From: a virus
Strand: one strand, 5' to 3'
Virus record (IMG/VR): IMGVR_UViG_3300021139_000198
Span: 1-20,354 of that record
DNA length: 20,354 nucleotides
Shown here: one piece after another, positions 11,235 through 20,354 of the stretch
Layout: each line of letters begins with the position of its first letter
How positions within the stretch are numbered: the first letter of the stretch is position 1
Made by a program: the position numbers and the translations under genes
The notes under the pieces: model-generated
Databases searched by the model: none
The model's input: the letters and a program-made list of their open reading frames with translations, nothing else
Told to the model about the DNA's origin: nothing

Positions 11235-12260
11235 TTAATATGCGGCAGAAAGGATTGTCAATGCTTCAGGACGAATACCCCAACCAGAAGTTGAACGCAT
11301 TGTGTACAGAGTTGTAATACCGCCATCAGGGATGGGAGTAGGAATTTCTGTTGGTGCGCTAACATCTGTCAACATCAAAGAAGTTGCGGTGATATTAGGT
11401 GTCAATGTAGCAAATACGTTGGTGTTGATCTTGTTGTTGGCTTTAGGAATCTTGAGTTCAGGAGCAATCAAAATGATCGCATCTGTACCGCCAGAACCTT
11501 GACCAATTAAAGTGTCATCAGCGGCGAAAACTACGTCATCACCACCTGCCCACTTTGCAACAGTCTCAATCAAACCTGCGGCAGTCTCTACACCTGCGCC
11601 AATTCGTTGGAACTGGGTTAAAGAAACAACGCCAGAATATGAAATTTGGCTGATGAATCTTTGTGGTGCTAAGAATACTAAACGCAAAGGTTGACCGATT
11701 TGCAGGGTACGAACCTTGAGTGCGCCAATCATGTTCAGCATATACTGAGCAAGTTGACCGCTATCCCAAGTGGAATAACCTGTGTTACCGTTTGTATCAG
11801 AACCCAAATTAACTGCGGTTGCGCCTGATGTATTAATCAAGCCTTCGCCGTTTGCAGGGTTGAAACCGTATAACAACGCATTACGCATTTGTTGTGCAAT
11901 ACCTTGTCTTGCGCCTAAACGCATAGCTTCTGGAAGCGCATAGCCCCAAACGCCAGTTGCGGCTTCATCAAAGTTATCGTACTGAGCACGAGTTGACATA
12001 CGGTAAGTTGCGGTGCTAATCATTGATGGGATAACCGATGCGCTAGGCAGTTGGTTAAACTGTGATTGATTAGCTTGAACTTGTGAAGTTAACTGAATTT
12101 TCTTAGCATAAACATACAAGTCTGCTTCACCAAGGCGGGGCATTGGGTTTTCAGTTGCTAGTGTTGTAAATGCGCCAGAAGCCAAGCTATATTGCATGAT
12201 TAACTCAGGCAACATAAAGTGGGGGTTAACTGTGACGAATGACGGTGCAAATCCTGACAT
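11235..12260 (-). CDS. Major capsid protein, HK97 fold, DUF2184-like
   Basis: 341 aa with a strong AAGGAG site 7 nt before the ATG. The sequence follows the DUF2184 major capsid family of compact myoviruses: an N-terminal arm, then GEADLYVYAKKIQLTSQVQA (E-loop region), a long alpha-helix-like stretch ALPEAMRLGARQGIAQQMRN (spine helix), FNPANGEGLINTSGA, LRLVFLAPQRFISQISYSGV and a C-terminal IRPEALTILSAAY. The GVWGYALPEAM and NGEGLIN motifs are typical of this group. It assembles the procapsid on the scaffold encoded just upstream. A terminator-like hairpin follows, and the decoration candidate precedes it by 15 nt. The N-terminal arm shows no obvious long delta domain, so scaffolding probably comes from the upstream fusion protein. 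Confidence 0.88.
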   Translation of the reverse strand: MSGFAPSFVTVNPHFMLPELIMQYSLASGAFTTLATENPMPRLGEADLYVYAKKIQLTSQVQANQSQFNQLPSASVIPSMISTATYRMSTRAQYDNFDEAATGVWGYALPEAMRLGARQGIAQQMRNALLYGFNPANGEGLINTSGATAVNLGSDTNGNTGYSTWDSGQLAQYMLNMIGALKVRTLQIGQPLRLVFLAPQRFISQISYSGVVSLTQFQRIGAGVETAAGLIETVAKWAGGDDVVFAADDTLIGQGSGGTDAIILIAPELKIPKANNKINTNVFATLTPNITATSLMLTDVSAPTEIPTPIPDGGITTLYTMRSTSGWGIRPEALTILSAAY

Positions 12261-12908: not shown

Positions 12909-13751
12909 TTAGCGTTGGTTGTTAGGTGTATGGAAAGTAGTTGCTCTTTGTGGAGGAACTTTGAAATCACTAAGCCATGCTTCCATTGAACCACGATACT
13001 TAGTGATTGTACGACCGCTTGAATCTCTTGATTGAATAGCAATCAATTGATCTCCAGGAACATGACTAGATGTTCTTGCGGCAGTCATTGCATCATTCAT
13101 AATTTGCTTTTCAGCTAATTCGAGTAATTTTGCATCTTTTATAGTTGCAAGGTTAATATCCTTGTAGCTATCAGAATACGCTTGCAATCCTCTGAGAAGA
13201 CGTTTCCTGTAAGCCATCAATGATTCGCCTTGGAGTGGGCGGGAAGCTGACTTACCAAAAGCGGCTAAAACTGAATCGCATTTTGCTTGTGCATCTGCAT
13301 ATTCTGCGGCGGCTTCGTCCATCTTCATAGCTTCTTCATCCTTCTTGGCATCATCGTCATCAGGCTTCATTTCACCTGAGGGCATTTTTTCTTCGCCCAT
13401 GTCAGAGCCTTCGGCATCTTTCTTGGCTTTTTTCATGTCATCTTCATCATCATCTTTGCGCATTTTTTTGGATTCCATGTGCTTTTCTTCCATATCTTCA
13501 TCTTTACGCTTTTTGGAATCCATTTTGCGTTCCATGAAGTGTTTGGCTTCTGATTCTGATTCCTCATCATCATCGTCCATCTTCGCATCTTCGTCTTTGC
13601 GCTTTTTATCAGCGGCAGTAACGAGTGGAGGGGCGGGAAGATTTTTTTCCATCTCATCAATTCTCACACTCATGGAGCTGAGAGCCGAAAGAATGGCATC
13701 TAGTTTATCGCCTTGAGCATCTGCTTTCGGCTCTACTTTGTTGTCTGTCAT
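12909..13751 (-). CDS. Nested scaffold protein from internal start (candidate)
   Basis: Inside the 811-aa gene, in the same frame, an ATG at codon 532 is preceded by AAGAGG with an 8-nt spacer, better than the site of the full-length gene. It would give a 280-aa product containing only the charged repeat region and the helical C-terminus, beginning MTDNKVEPKADAQGDKLDAI. The boundary falls just after the end of the protease domain. Lambda C/Nu3 uses the same arrangement: a protease fused to the scaffold, plus an abundant scaffold-only product from an internal start. That parallel is established knowledge; use of this start here is inferred. Confidence 0.55.
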   Translation of the reverse strand: MTDNKVEPKADAQGDKLDAILSALSSMSVRIDEMEKNLPAPPLVTAADKKRKDEDAKMDDDDEESESEAKHFMERKMDSKKRKDEDMEEKHMESKKMRKDDDEDDMKKAKKDAEGSDMGEEKMPSGEMKPDDDDAKKDEEAMKMDEAAAEYADAQAKCDSVLAAFGKSASRPLQGESLMAYRKRLLRGLQAYSDSYKDINLATIKDAKLLELAEKQIMNDAMTAARTSSHVPGDQLIAIQSRDSSGRTITKYRGSMEAWLSDFKVPPQRATTFHTPNNQR

Positions 13752-15344
13752 TTCAGATACCTCTTGGTTAGTTAATAATACTCCTGCGGGTTCGCCACCC
13801 TTGTCCCATACTCCTTTAGAACCCCTTGCTTCAGTTACGATAGCAATATGATCTAAAAGAAATGGTACACCTTCGATCAAGAGTGGCTCTCCATTCTCAG
13901 TCGTTAGTGTCGTGTTACCTGCTGTTTGGTCAAAAACAACAGATGGGCTAGTGCTAACTTCTTCGGTCAAAATGGTGTCTACCGCATCTTGGTCGTAGAT
14001 TTTCGCAATACCCCAAACTTCATCTCCCTTGATATAAGGCAGAATAATACTTCCAACTGCTCTGTCCTTGAATTCCTTGGAAGTCAGAACCGCAGTTTCA
14101 GGGTGATCCATTATCACAATCAACCCATTACAACGCTTTAAAAAGTCATCATTCAAATATAAACTGGAATCACGCCAAACGTGCTCTCCAATACTTGAAC
14201 GATAAGCTAACCCTGTTCCTGTAATGCGAATAGCTAATAGCATAACATTAGCATACATTTGAGGGCTTGGCAATAAATCTTGCCTAATTAATTCAGCATA
14301 ATCAAATTCTGTTTTTGCACTTGCAATTTTGAAACAAATATCTTGTCCTGGATGCAAAGGCATTGGGGGATTGTCAACATGACACCAATCATAACCAGTT
14401 GATTCATGATTCAAAGTTACTGGCATTTGCTGAACATTTCGAGCAATGTAAGTACAAAATTGACCATCATCAAATAATACTTCTAACTTGCCATCGTATT
14501 TAATGCCTGTTTCTTCAAAGCACTCACGCCTAGCCGCTTCTTCTAAGTTTGCATCTTCTTTATTTTGATGACCGCCTGGTACTGCCCAAGTTTGTGGGTA
14601 ATCTCCACCATCGCCCCTGCGAATCAATAATACTTTGCCGTCATTGGTCAAAAACATTATTCCTGCGGCACGACCTAATGCCCCTGCATCTTTGTCAATT
14701 GGCATAGCATCGGATTTTGAACCAGTTGCAATTCTTTCAACGGCTAAATCATCAGCTTTTAAATTTGTAATACTTTGAGTAATTTCTGCTAATTTGGCTG
14801 ACAAGCCTTTTAATTCTGATTGAACTTTGGAACTATCCCAATCAGCATCGCATTTCCATTTTTTTAGTGCTAAATTAATCCTGGAATTTGGGTCGTGTTT
14901 TGTTTTGTCAGAAGTTAGCTTTTCTTTCATGCCTGACATTCGGGCACAAAATGATTCTTTTCTTGACCCGCCTTCAGGTTGGGGGGCTTTTAAATGCGCC
15001 CCATGCTCTTTGTTGTAAGAAGCCCTGCCTTTGGCATTTAAGCCGCCGTTTTTATTCTTACCTTCCTTGGTCTCCCAAGCCTCAGAATCATCCTCTGGAA
15101 CGCAATTGGGCACTTCTTTGCCGCCTTTTTGCTTCATTCCTAATTGTTTGTAACCTTCCCAACAAGGGTCAGCATCATCTTCTTTAAATTCGGGAGTTGA
15201 TAACGGCGTAGATTCTTCAGGAATATCGCCGTCTTCTGAGTGTTTAATAAATTTCTTTGCCACTTCTTTAGGGATGCCAATATTGCCATGACCGCTTGCG
15301 GCGGCATACATAGCTTTTCGTTGGGCTTCCGATTCAAATGGCAT
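12909..15344 (-). CDS. Head protein fusion: Nudix + DUF2213 protease + scaffold
   Basis: 811 aa, far longer than a usual prohead protease. Domains in order: residues 1-40 a short motif common in phage head proteins (FESEAQRKAMYAAASGHG); 55-85 Cys-containing DPCWEGYKQLGMKQKGG; 100-165 GLNAKGRASYNKEHGAHLK and DPNSRINLALKKWKC, a DUF6321-like segment; 225-345 a Nudix hydrolase with box GGHQNKEDANLEEAARRECF then EETG at 257-280, one residue longer than canonical; 370-520 DUF2213-type protease, with candidate His in MDHPE (414), Ser in STSPS (464-468) and Asp-His in LLDHIAIV; 532-811 a scaffold-like tail with strongly charged Lys/Asp/Glu/Met repeats (575-680) and a helical end. No Shine-Dalgarno; the start lies 3 nt past the preceding stop, implying coupling. 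The protease would mature the procapsid; the Nudix role is unknown. Confidence 0.8.
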   Translation of the reverse strand: MPFESEAQRKAMYAAASGHGNIGIPKEVAKKFIKHSEDGDIPEESTPLSTPEFKEDDADPCWEGYKQLGMKQKGGKEVPNCVPEDDSEAWETKEGKNKNGGLNAKGRASYNKEHGAHLKAPQPEGGSRKESFCARMSGMKEKLTSDKTKHDPNSRINLALKKWKCDADWDSSKVQSELKGLSAKLAEITQSITNLKADDLAVERIATGSKSDAMPIDKDAGALGRAAGIMFLTNDGKVLLIRRGDGGDYPQTWAVPGGHQNKEDANLEEAARRECFEETGIKYDGKLEVLFDDGQFCTYIARNVQQMPVTLNHESTGYDWCHVDNPPMPLHPGQDICFKIASAKTEFDYAELIRQDLLPSPQMYANVMLLAIRITGTGLAYRSSIGEHVWRDSSLYLNDDFLKRCNGLIVIMDHPETAVLTSKEFKDRAVGSIILPYIKGDEVWGIAKIYDQDAVDTILTEEVSTSPSVVFDQTAGNTTLTTENGEPLLIEGVPFLLDHIAIVTEARGSKGVWDKGGEPAGVLLTNQEVSEMTDNKVEPKADAQGDKLDAILSALSSMSVRIDEMEKNLPAPPLVTAADKKRKDEDAKMDDDDEESESEAKHFMERKMDSKKRKDEDMEEKHMESKKMRKDDDEDDMKKAKKDAEGSDMGEEKMPSGEMKPDDDDAKKDEEAMKMDEAAAEYADAQAKCDSVLAAFGKSASRPLQGESLMAYRKRLLRGLQAYSDSYKDINLATIKDAKLLELAEKQIMNDAMTAARTSSHVPGDQLIAIQSRDSSGRTITKYRGSMEAWLSDFKVPPQRATTFHTPNNQR
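13759..13765 (-). promoter_or_regulatory. Internal ribosome binding site for the nested scaffold
   Basis: AAGAGGT on the minus strand, 8 nt before the in-frame ATG at 13751. It lies inside the coding region of the protease fusion, so its good fit is not explained by the junction spacing. It decides the proposed scaffold start. Confidence 0.5.
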
Positions 15345-15347
15345 AAA

Positions 15348-16151
15348 TTATTTAAAAGTAATTTTGGCAGATTGTAATGCCTTTTCGCCCTTTGTTGTCA
15401 ACAAATCTTTTACTGAACTTAAATTGTAGATGTATTGATAATTGCACCTGCAAAATACTTCTTCGCCTGGTTGCGTTATTTCATCGGTATAACCATTGGG
15501 ATGCTTTAAATAACCTTTTTCATCCGCCCATGAGTTGCGAATAATATATATCTTATCGTCACGTTCTTTATGATCTTTTCTGTAATCATAGTTCACTTGC
15601 CGCCAATGACTATGCCATTTTGCCGCAATTGCGCCGTTATCAACCGCAACAATATCATTAATATTTGAAACCAATTTATGGGTTTGATCTATTACAACCC
15701 TGCGTTGTTCAAAAGTAATAGCACTCAAGGATTTTCTAATATCCTTTTTAGTTTTGTTCCTATCCGTTACTTTGCTACCGCCTGGGGGTATGGATGTTGC
15801 CCATCCTTGAAACCTGCGCAGGGTGTTGCTAATGGCTTCCTGGCGGTTTAATTTAATAAGGTTAGCCGCAGTTGAAATTCTGCGGTCTAGTTCGTTTCTT
15901 AATTTTGGTTTGAGCCGTTCAACATCGTATTTGGTGACGTTTTTTCTGACCAATCCGCCCTTTACGACCAATCTGGTATATGCGGCGGTCATTGCTTTAA
16001 TCATTTCCTGCTCGACCTGCGATTCAGGGATTAAACTGTTGTAGGCGGCAATTTTGATTGTTTCCATCCAATCCTGAAGTCTTTTTTCAGAATCGAATCC
16101 ATATTCCATTATGTCGTTAATTGCTTCGGTCAGAACTTCATAAAACGTCAT
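15348..16151 (-). CDS. Minor head protein, Mu gpF-like
   Basis: 267 aa. AAGG precedes the ATG, and the gene overlaps the end of the upstream HTH gene by 14 nt. The N-terminal two thirds are helical and basic. The C-terminal part has the pattern of the Mu gpF/SPP1 gp7 minor head family: QRRVVIDQTHKLVSNINDIV, AAKWHSHWRQVNYDYRKDHK with the W-x-S/T...H-x-D/E-R-D core, then YTDEITQPGEEVFCRCNYQY, where the C-R-C motif ends the domain. Such proteins sit at the portal and often affect DNA ejection or head assembly. Its place between portal/kinase and protease genes is usual for the family. The final residues (LTTKGEKALQSAKITFK) are a basic tail. Confidence 0.85.
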   Translation of the reverse strand: MTFYEVLTEAINDIMEYGFDSEKRLQDWMETIKIAAYNSLIPESQVEQEMIKAMTAAYTRLVVKGGLVRKNVTKYDVERLKPKLRNELDRRISTAANLIKLNRQEAISNTLRRFQGWATSIPPGGSKVTDRNKTKKDIRKSLSAITFEQRRVVIDQTHKLVSNINDIVAVDNGAIAAKWHSHWRQVNYDYRKDHKERDDKIYIIRNSWADEKGYLKHPNGYTDEITQPGEEVFCRCNYQYIYNLSSVKDLLTTKGEKALQSAKITFK

Positions 16152-18834: not shown

Positions 18835-19014
18835 CTATTCAGAATCTTCCATGCTTTCAGCTTCGTCCCATAGCTTTTTATTCTTGGGTTCGTTGCCGAT
18901 TTTCTCCATCGCAAGCAAAATGCGTTGGTCATTTTCGGCTTTGTATTGCTCCAAACTTTTACCGTTGAGAGTTTTTAACCATTCTGTTTTAGCTTTTTCA
19001 AAATCAATACTCAT
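18835..19014 (-). CDS. Small acidic protein, 59 aa, unknown
   Basis: 59 aa, ATG at 19014 with GAGAG 6 nt upstream; a perfect terminator follows. MSIDFEKAKTEWLKTLNGKS then LEQYKAENDQRILLAMEKIG and EPKNKKLWDEAESMEDSE is mostly helical and acidic at the end. It follows the kinase gene after a short gap that holds a TATAAT box (19056-19061). An acidic small protein beside a zeta-like kinase might be its partner (antitoxin-like or chaperone), but no sequence evidence links them. Confidence 0.65.
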   Translation of the reverse strand: MSIDFEKAKTEWLKTLNGKSLEQYKAENDQRILLAMEKIGNEPKNKKLWDEAESMEDSE

Positions 19015-19067: not shown

Positions 19068-20240
19068 CTACCCTAGAAGTGTTTTCAGCTTGTCCTTACC
19101 TATTTCGCCTTTAGCAAACATTTCTTTAGCTTGGCGTTCCAATTTTTGCCTGGTAACTGCGGGGTCGTATTTAAATACGCCTTCTAATGTACCCAAATGC
19201 ACATTATGCGGTTCGTCAAAATTATTGATAATTTGCATCTTAACTCTTGGGTTGTCTTTGTAGTGTTCGTGCATTTCATGAATCGTCTTAGATGCGCCCA
19301 TGTGCGCTTCAATTAAAACGTCAATAGATACTGACCTGGAACGCATTGCATTGAACTTTAAAGCCCTTTCAATAGGCGTATTGGTGTAAACAATCACCGC
19401 ATCGCCTTCGGTCATATCAAGTGCTTCATTAACTTTGCGACTGGACGATTTGAATGTTGACATAACCGAATCGTAAACCAAGTTATCGTCTTTCAATCCA
19501 AACATGGATGCCGCAAGGGGTGAAGTAGCCGATTTTCCTGAACCGCTTCCACCTGCGGTAAACATTGTTGGGGTTTTGTCGTTTTCCCTGGCTTTTTTCT
19601 CTAATGCTTGCCTGTAAATAACTTTGGACAAATGAGAACTTGGCTCATGAACTGCACCAACCATCGACATATCTTTTCTGAACGCAGGGCTTAATTTCTT
19701 AACCTGGTCAGCATCAATAGTATTGAAAAACTTTTCTTTCTTCATTGCTTGCCAATAATCAGAAATCAATTGTTGCTGATTGGTTCTGATGGCGTTGTAA
19801 AAAGTTCCTTCAACTCGCCTTTGTTTTGGGGTTAGTCCTGGTGATCTTTCAAATCCATGCTTATCAACGCCGCCTTTTTCAAATCCTCTGCCTTTTTTTT
19901 CTGCGGGTTTTTCAGTTGGCGCAGGTTCAGAACTTCTCAGCTTTTCAATTTCTTGCAAAGTTTCCTTTTGCTTAGGCGAACCTGGCATTTCTTTCAAGCC
20001 TTTGTTATACGCTTTTAACAATTCCAAACTTGGCTTTTCTGTCTTGGTAGGCTCAACTGATGCGCCCCCACCACCACCGCCAGAAGTAAATTTTCCGCTT
20101 GGGTCTCTTGGGTGTTCGTGTTCTTTAAAATCATCGTTTACAAAAACATATTCGTCTGAACGAATTACAAACTTAAAAAGCGGCATAAGCCGTTCATGAA
20201 CATTAATAATATTTCCTGTTTTAATATTTTTAAATTTCAT
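19068..20240 (-). CDS. Zeta-toxin-like P-loop kinase fused to head-type domain
   Basis: 390 aa. AAGGG precedes ATG 7 nt downstream. The N-terminus (1-60) contains FKEHEHPRDPSGKFTSGGGG, a phrase common in virion-associated proteins, followed by a Glu/Lys/Pro-rich linker (60-145). Residues about 145-215 carry IDADQVKKLSPAFRKD and AVHEPSSHLSKVIYRQALEK, which match the zeta/PezT element that normally follows the P-loop. The Walker A motif GGSGSGKS stands at 230-237, then VYDSVMST, GDAVIVYTNTPIERALKFNA and R300/R302 like the zeta arginines. So the catalytic parts appear complete but in unusual order. Zeta kinases phosphorylate UDP-GlcNAc or other substrates; the substrate here is unknown. It lies between the portal and minor head genes, so virion packaging is possible. 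Confidence 0.72.
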   Translation of the reverse strand: MKFKNIKTGNIINVHERLMPLFKFVIRSDEYVFVNDDFKEHEHPRDPSGKFTSGGGGGGASVEPTKTEKPSLELLKAYNKGLKEMPGSPKQKETLQEIEKLRSSEPAPTEKPAEKKGRGFEKGGVDKHGFERSPGLTPKQRRVEGTFYNAIRTNQQQLISDYWQAMKKEKFFNTIDADQVKKLSPAFRKDMSMVGAVHEPSSHLSKVIYRQALEKKARENDKTPTMFTAGGSGSGKSATSPLAASMFGLKDDNLVYDSVMSTFKSSSRKVNEALDMTEGDAVIVYTNTPIERALKFNAMRSRSVSIDVLIEAHMGASKTIHEMHEHYKDNPRVKMQIINNFDEPHNVHLGTLEGVFKYDPAVTRQKLERQAKEMFAKGEIGKDKLKTLLG

Positions 20241-20242
20241 GC

Positions 20243-20354
20243 TTAATCCCTTGGCGCAGGTTCTTTAAGTTCAGGCATTGGGGTAGGCGGCTCATAATCC
20301 ATTAAATTCTCAATGTCCAAATCCAAATGGCTTTGGAACATATCAGGCATTTCG
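20243..20354 (-). CDS. C-terminus of upstream head gene, probably portal
   Basis: Only 36 codons and a stop are visible; the gene extends beyond the right edge. The tail is EMPDMFQSHLDLDIENLMDY followed by EPPTPMPELKEPAPRD, an acidic, Pro-rich end. In phages with this gene order (kinase and Mu gpF-like gene next) the upstream gene is usually the portal protein, whose C-terminus is often acidic or proline-rich. Stop to next ATG is 2 nt. The portal call is positional. Confidence 0.45.
   Translation of the reverse strand, partial: EMPDMFQSHLDLDIENLMDYEPPTPMPELKEPAPRD

Follow-up and report, generated by a model that had tools for sequence, protein, structure and literature searches.

The classical zeta and PezT kinases (1GVN, 3Q8X and 2P5T; Pfam profile PF06414, Zeta_toxin) have the P-loop first, followed by the IDxD and HExSS elements. 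A departure from this order, named "topological rewiring", was described by Rocker et al. (2018) in ng_zeta1 of Neisseria gonorrhoeae (6EPG/6EPH/6EPI), where two blocks are shuffled (PMC5923241). ng_zeta1 is a UDP-sugar 4′-kinase with Asp56 as a catalytic residue, and zeta relatives vary in substrate, AvrRxo1 being one that phosphorylates NAD (PMC5923241). Concerning phages, a zeta-like kinase on the head protein MuF was already reported by Iyer et al. (2017), who proposed that domains of this sort aid injection or weaken the wall; the injection of MuF- and portal-fused effectors, the zeta kinase on MuF included, is an earlier proposal (PMC5512222). The passages of that paper on the zeta-like kinase do not mention a portal fusion, and no form of "permut" occurs in its text. 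As far as searched, the swapped block order is unmentioned in the three papers on MuF toxins and polyvalent proteins (PMC5576092, PMC5512222 and PMC11699363), and literature searches on permuted zeta toxins and on portal-borne zeta kinases returned no phage report.

The window analyzed here is an entire metagenome virus record of 20,354 nt (IMGVR_UViG_3300021139_000198), whose minus strand carries the head and tail module of a tailed phage. Its features relevant to this work are the following:

20243..20353, minus strand: portal gene, 3′ end, immediately preceding the kinase gene (translation EMPDMFQ...PAPRD*)
19068..20240, minus strand: block-swapped zeta-like kinase gene, 390 aa, ATG start (open reading frame; PF06414 in three swapped pieces; purifying selection)
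20088..20117, minus strand: EHPRDPSGKF junction phrase, residues 42-51 (HPRxxxGxF separates the portal from the cargo where the kinase is portal-fused)
19071..19832, minus strand: modelled kinase domain, residues 137-390 (AlphaFold pLDDT 91.4, pTM 0.87; 6EPH matched end to end with TM 0.79)
19707..19718, minus strand: IDAD, residues 175-178 (profile alignment to 6EPH places D178 on catalytic Asp56 of ng_zeta1; D in 45/45)
19635..19649, minus strand: HEPSS element, residues 198-202 (motif position; S202 conservation)
19530..19553, minus strand: P-loop GGSGSGKS, residues 230-237 (PF06414 profile 6-47; K236 at Lys115 of ng_zeta1, K in 45/45)
19467..19478, minus strand: VYDS, residues 255-258 (6EPH profile alignment places D257 at Glu133 of ng_zeta1)
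19335..19343, minus strand: Arg pair, R300 and R302 (6EPH profile alignment, which puts them on Arg175 and Arg181 of ng_zeta1)
18835..19014, minus strand: small acidic protein gene, 59 aa (conserved kinase neighbour in several phage backbones, also in L111)
15348..16151, minus strand: MuF-like head morphogenesis gene, context (phrog_324, E 2e-26; weak PF04233)
12909..15344, minus strand: Nudix and DUF2213 head maturation protease-like gene, 811 aa, context (PF00293, PF09979, phrog_530, phrog_2229)
11235..12260, minus strand: major capsid protein gene, context (phrog_6671, phrog_264, weak PF09950)

The kinase gene had been assigned to a head module from the sequence alone, and this placement holds, as the portal gene end at 20243 just precedes the kinase start. 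A near-identical phage (L004) shows the complete portal protein, with PF06381. The window kinase itself is not fused to any structural protein; its gene stands alone after that of the portal. As a separate observation, the 811-aa protein is unusual in joining DUF6321, Nudix and DUF2213 regions, and it carries a strongly charged Asp/Glu/Lys tract.

Block order and predicted fold of the kinase

In the window protein the order of the classical motifs is reversed: IDAD (175-178) and HEPSS (198-202) precede the P-loop (230-237), while VYDS (255-258) and the Arg pair (300/302) follow it, exactly as noted in the sequence-only reading. The PF06414 profile, which has the classical order, matches the window frame from N to C terminus as profile 48-95 (about residues 174-216), 6-47 (214-255) and 145-183 (294-334). 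The 879-aa protein of phage MW202577, 27% identical to the window kinase, gives pieces in the order 48-94, 12-40 and 98-177. When 15 records were scanned with PF06414, 14 matched, and the 48-95 piece lay upstream of the P-loop piece in all seven records showing that piece, the remaining matching records giving only non-discriminating pieces. Single pieces are weak (E about 1e-4 to 1), so that the claim of a swap takes its weight from the repeated complementary order of the pieces, together with a motif order that is regular in all the loci where both motifs were found, and with the predicted structure. In addition, only about 17 residues separate the P-loop from VYDS in the window kinase, which means that the classical block is missing there; that block sits upstream. 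Taken together, the sequence comparisons and the structural model confirm that the IDAD/HEPSS block stands ahead of the P-loop in a zeta-like kinase, and not by chance.

The sequence-only reading had suggested a circularly permuted or rearranged kinase core. The rearrangement stands, while circular permutation was rejected, as two adjacent blocks are exchanged and both ends of the domain are unmoved. The swapped order turned out to be common to the homologues, instead of the canonical order.

An AlphaFold model of residues 137-390, built from an alignment of 16 relatives, predicts with high confidence (pLDDT 91.4, pTM 0.87) a single intact kinase core, with the IDAD strand within the kinase fold and not outside it. 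A model of a whole portal-kinase fusion, based on only five sequences, was poor (pLDDT 49) and was left unused. With Foldseek, the best solved match of the kinase model was ng_zeta1 (6EPH; E 4e-12, TM 0.79, rmsd 3.3, 273 columns), aligned end to end. The match to the classical zeta structures 1GVN and 3Q8X gave TM 0.43-0.48 with rmsd 7.5-10.7, and the sequential TM across 1GVN, 3Q8X and 2P5T ranged from 0.28 to 0.48. Foldseek alignments follow the order of the sequence, and a block swap shared with ng_zeta1 predicts such a contrast. In the BFVD library of viral models four proteins matched end to end (TM 0.73-0.87), and the other zeta-like viral proteins among the matches listed reached TM 0.50 at most. 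One of these four is from a giant virus, Brazilian cedratvirus (BFVD entry A0A2R8FDL0), with a predicted fold that corresponds end to end to the rewired kinase (TM 0.75).

The comparison with ng_zeta1 is also consistent at the level of profiles, as the family profile matched 6EPH among the PDB sequences with E 4e-17, colinearly over 5-244. Both proteins have the same two-block swap and end-to-end topology, and the P-loop Lys, the catalytic Asp and the Arg pair are common to both. On the other hand, their identity is about 20%; ng_zeta1 is paired with an antitoxin and bears a C-terminal OB domain, whereas the window kinase has no recognised antitoxin and no OB domain, and is located in a phage head module. 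With the classical zeta and PezT kinases, the window kinase shares the elements of the kinase fold and the motifs, but not the P-loop-first order. As ng_zeta1 already has the swap, the rearrangement is real but not new. On alignment and model evidence, the window protein can be classed as belonging to a phage branch of the rewired, ng_zeta1-type zeta kinases.

The active site is conserved along with the swap. In 45 distinct phage kinase domain sequences, D178, S202, K236, D257, R302, H313 and N340 are invariant; position 300 is Arg in 38 of them, and position 181, which aligns to Lys59 of ng_zeta1, is Lys in the window and either Lys or Arg in all 45. The dN/dS of the kinase domain (0.06-0.13) indicates purifying selection. 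Asn75 of ng_zeta1, a contact of UDP-MurNAc, appears to fall on Val/Ala, in a register that is inferred because the position lies within an alignment insertion; the substrate may thus differ from that of ng_zeta1.

Portal and MuF fusions among the relatives

A scan of viral contigs located the domain at 63 loci, mostly C-terminal on portal proteins. The portal fusions involve at least two portal subtypes (PF06381, E 1e-16 to 1e-81) and carry the kinase at the C terminus, as do the MuF fusions (PF04233, E 4e-8). Further architectures are a stand-alone gene that follows the portal gene, which is the arrangement of the window, and proteins of about 900 aa, like that of MW202577, which was the sole match among annotated phages. 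In one case (L032) the kinase domain is at the N terminus of a 1,918-aa protein. The plasmid collection gave no match to the kinase, and the genome collection gave only a P-loop match to a uridine kinase that was judged spurious. None of 13 contigs showed a tyrosine integrase, which leaves a temperate lifestyle unsupported, in contrast to the MuF toxins of PMC5576092.

The phrase HPRxxxGxF and a glycine-rich stretch precede the kinase in nearly all its fusions to the portal and in the stand-alone genes, while the MuF fusions lack the phrase. The sequence-only reading had taken the EHPRDPSGKF phrase as typical of virion proteins, with the enzyme possibly entering the cell with the DNA. A link of the window kinase to the virion receives indirect support, inasmuch as HPRxxxGxF marks the junction of portal and cargo in the portal-fused relatives. 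Three other arrangements were observed around this phrase. Close relatives of the window phage differ in an entire HPR-tagged gene of 223 aa between portal and kinase (L004:5332-6000), which is present in L002-L005 and L008, and absent from the window and L006. The portal fusions L030:1024-4218 and L070:2024-5299 contain an extra domain between portal and kinase, with a separate HPRxxxGQF ahead of each domain. In L062:5610-7049 the HPR phrase is followed by a weakly GNAT-like stretch and then by the kinase.

The cargo placed behind the portal is not always the kinase. In L111 (3-1319) a Tas1-like alarmone synthetase domain (6OX6, E 8e-14) is C-terminal on the same kind of portal, after the HPR phrase, and a gene downstream has a hydrolase domain of the HD_4 type (PF13328, E 1e-16). 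Both also occur in L126, a truncated near-copy of L111, and in no kinase locus. From their sequences, the two could possibly form a toxin and antidote pair, parallel to the Apk2 MuF toxins with hydrolase immunity proteins (PMC11699363). The presence of the Tas1-like cargo in the same portal slot supports an effector-carrying slot behind the portal. The relatives resemble the MuF polymorphic toxins and polyvalent proteins (PMC5576092, PMC5512222, PMC11699363) in having a toxin-like C-terminal domain on a head protein, but here the portal is the carrier in most of them, and the window copy is separate. Judging from these sequences, what seems novel is the setting, i.e., a rewired kinase on or after a phage portal or on MuF.

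Proposed role of the kinase

We consider it somewhat probable that the window encodes a rewired zeta kinase of the phage head module that phosphorylates a UDP-sugar, is packaged in the head and acts as an effector. The strand and helix with the catalytic Asp and HEPSS come before, not after, the P-loop unit of what is otherwise, in the predicted fold, a normal zeta-type kinase. By analogy with ng_zeta1, the γ-phosphate of ATP would be transferred to a hydroxyl group on a UDP-sugar, UDP-GlcNAc or UDP-MurNAc for example, with D178 acting as the base and K236, R300 and R302 holding the phosphates; the dead-end UDP-sugar products would starve peptidoglycan synthesis. Since the relatives are built into portal and head proteins, the kinase is probably carried in the virus particle. 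We infer from those fusions that association with the portal would bring it into the head, and that it would most likely pass into the next host along with the DNA, with a possible additional action in the producing cell, late in infection.

It can tentatively be proposed, as a more general possibility, that these portals provide an exchangeable slot for C-terminal effectors, so that about a dozen wall-precursor kinases per virion (alarmone synthetases in sister phages) would be released with the DNA, the effector of the window having been split off as a tagged gene.

The action of the same rewired kinase might be confined to a late stage in the producing cell, where it would assist lysis or stop wall synthesis, the fusion only setting its amount or place. 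The late position of the head module fits this explanation, as does the lysis of E. coli caused by ng_zeta1 through draining of UDP-sugars (PMC5923241), but the many portal fusions, the other fusions to MuF and the exchange with Tas1-like cargo look more like packaged effectors, and we regard it as rather improbable. Another explanation, which we judge unlikely, is that the rewired zeta fold acts on another substrate (a nucleotide, an NAD-type cofactor or another sugar nucleotide), in metabolic takeover or counter-defence. It would agree with the NAD-phosphorylating activity of AvrRxo1 and with the apparent loss of the Asn75 position, whereas the closest solved whole-domain relative is a UDP-sugar kinase, with Lys59, both Arg and the base kept in the phage protein. 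Finally, that a classical zeta kinase is joined to an unrelated N-terminal domain with chance IDAD-like and HEPSS-like strings is hardly credible: the motifs are short and each Pfam piece is weak, but the short span between P-loop and VYDS leaves the classical block absent there, the N-terminal block is part of the core both in the model and in the crystal structure of ng_zeta1, and the end-to-end match of the model to 6EPH argues against it.

With the phage kinases, the rewired zeta class, so far one of bacterial toxin-antitoxin pairs, comes to include phage head proteins, and the block swap is seen to be stable in widely differing protein contexts. Should the portal-borne kinase enter the host at infection, it would directly exemplify a phage attack on the supply of wall precursors from the first minutes, and it would offer a testable system for the exit of folded enzymes from the capsid.

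The small acidic gene next to the kinase

The acidic 59-aa open reading frame (18835-19014) is below the usual size cut-off, and it is conserved across several backbones with head-bound effectors. Its relatives are found directly behind kinases of the window type, portal-fused kinases (L010-L012) and MuF-fused kinases, while other portal phages have them next to the MuF gene. The kinase is present at all loci that gave a clear match and include the kinase region, L111 being the exception; in this tally six loci were too short to tell, and the matches in L121 and L122 were weak. No sequence match was found between the 59-aa protein and ng_epsilon1 in the PDB. A kinase-specific antitoxin role was considered and is unsupported in that form, as L111 has the gene next to MuF together with the Tas1-like cargo; the gene also accompanies that other cargo, and it is thus not proven to encode an antitoxin. 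The 59-aa product may instead be a widely used immunity protein, a head factor or a chaperone.
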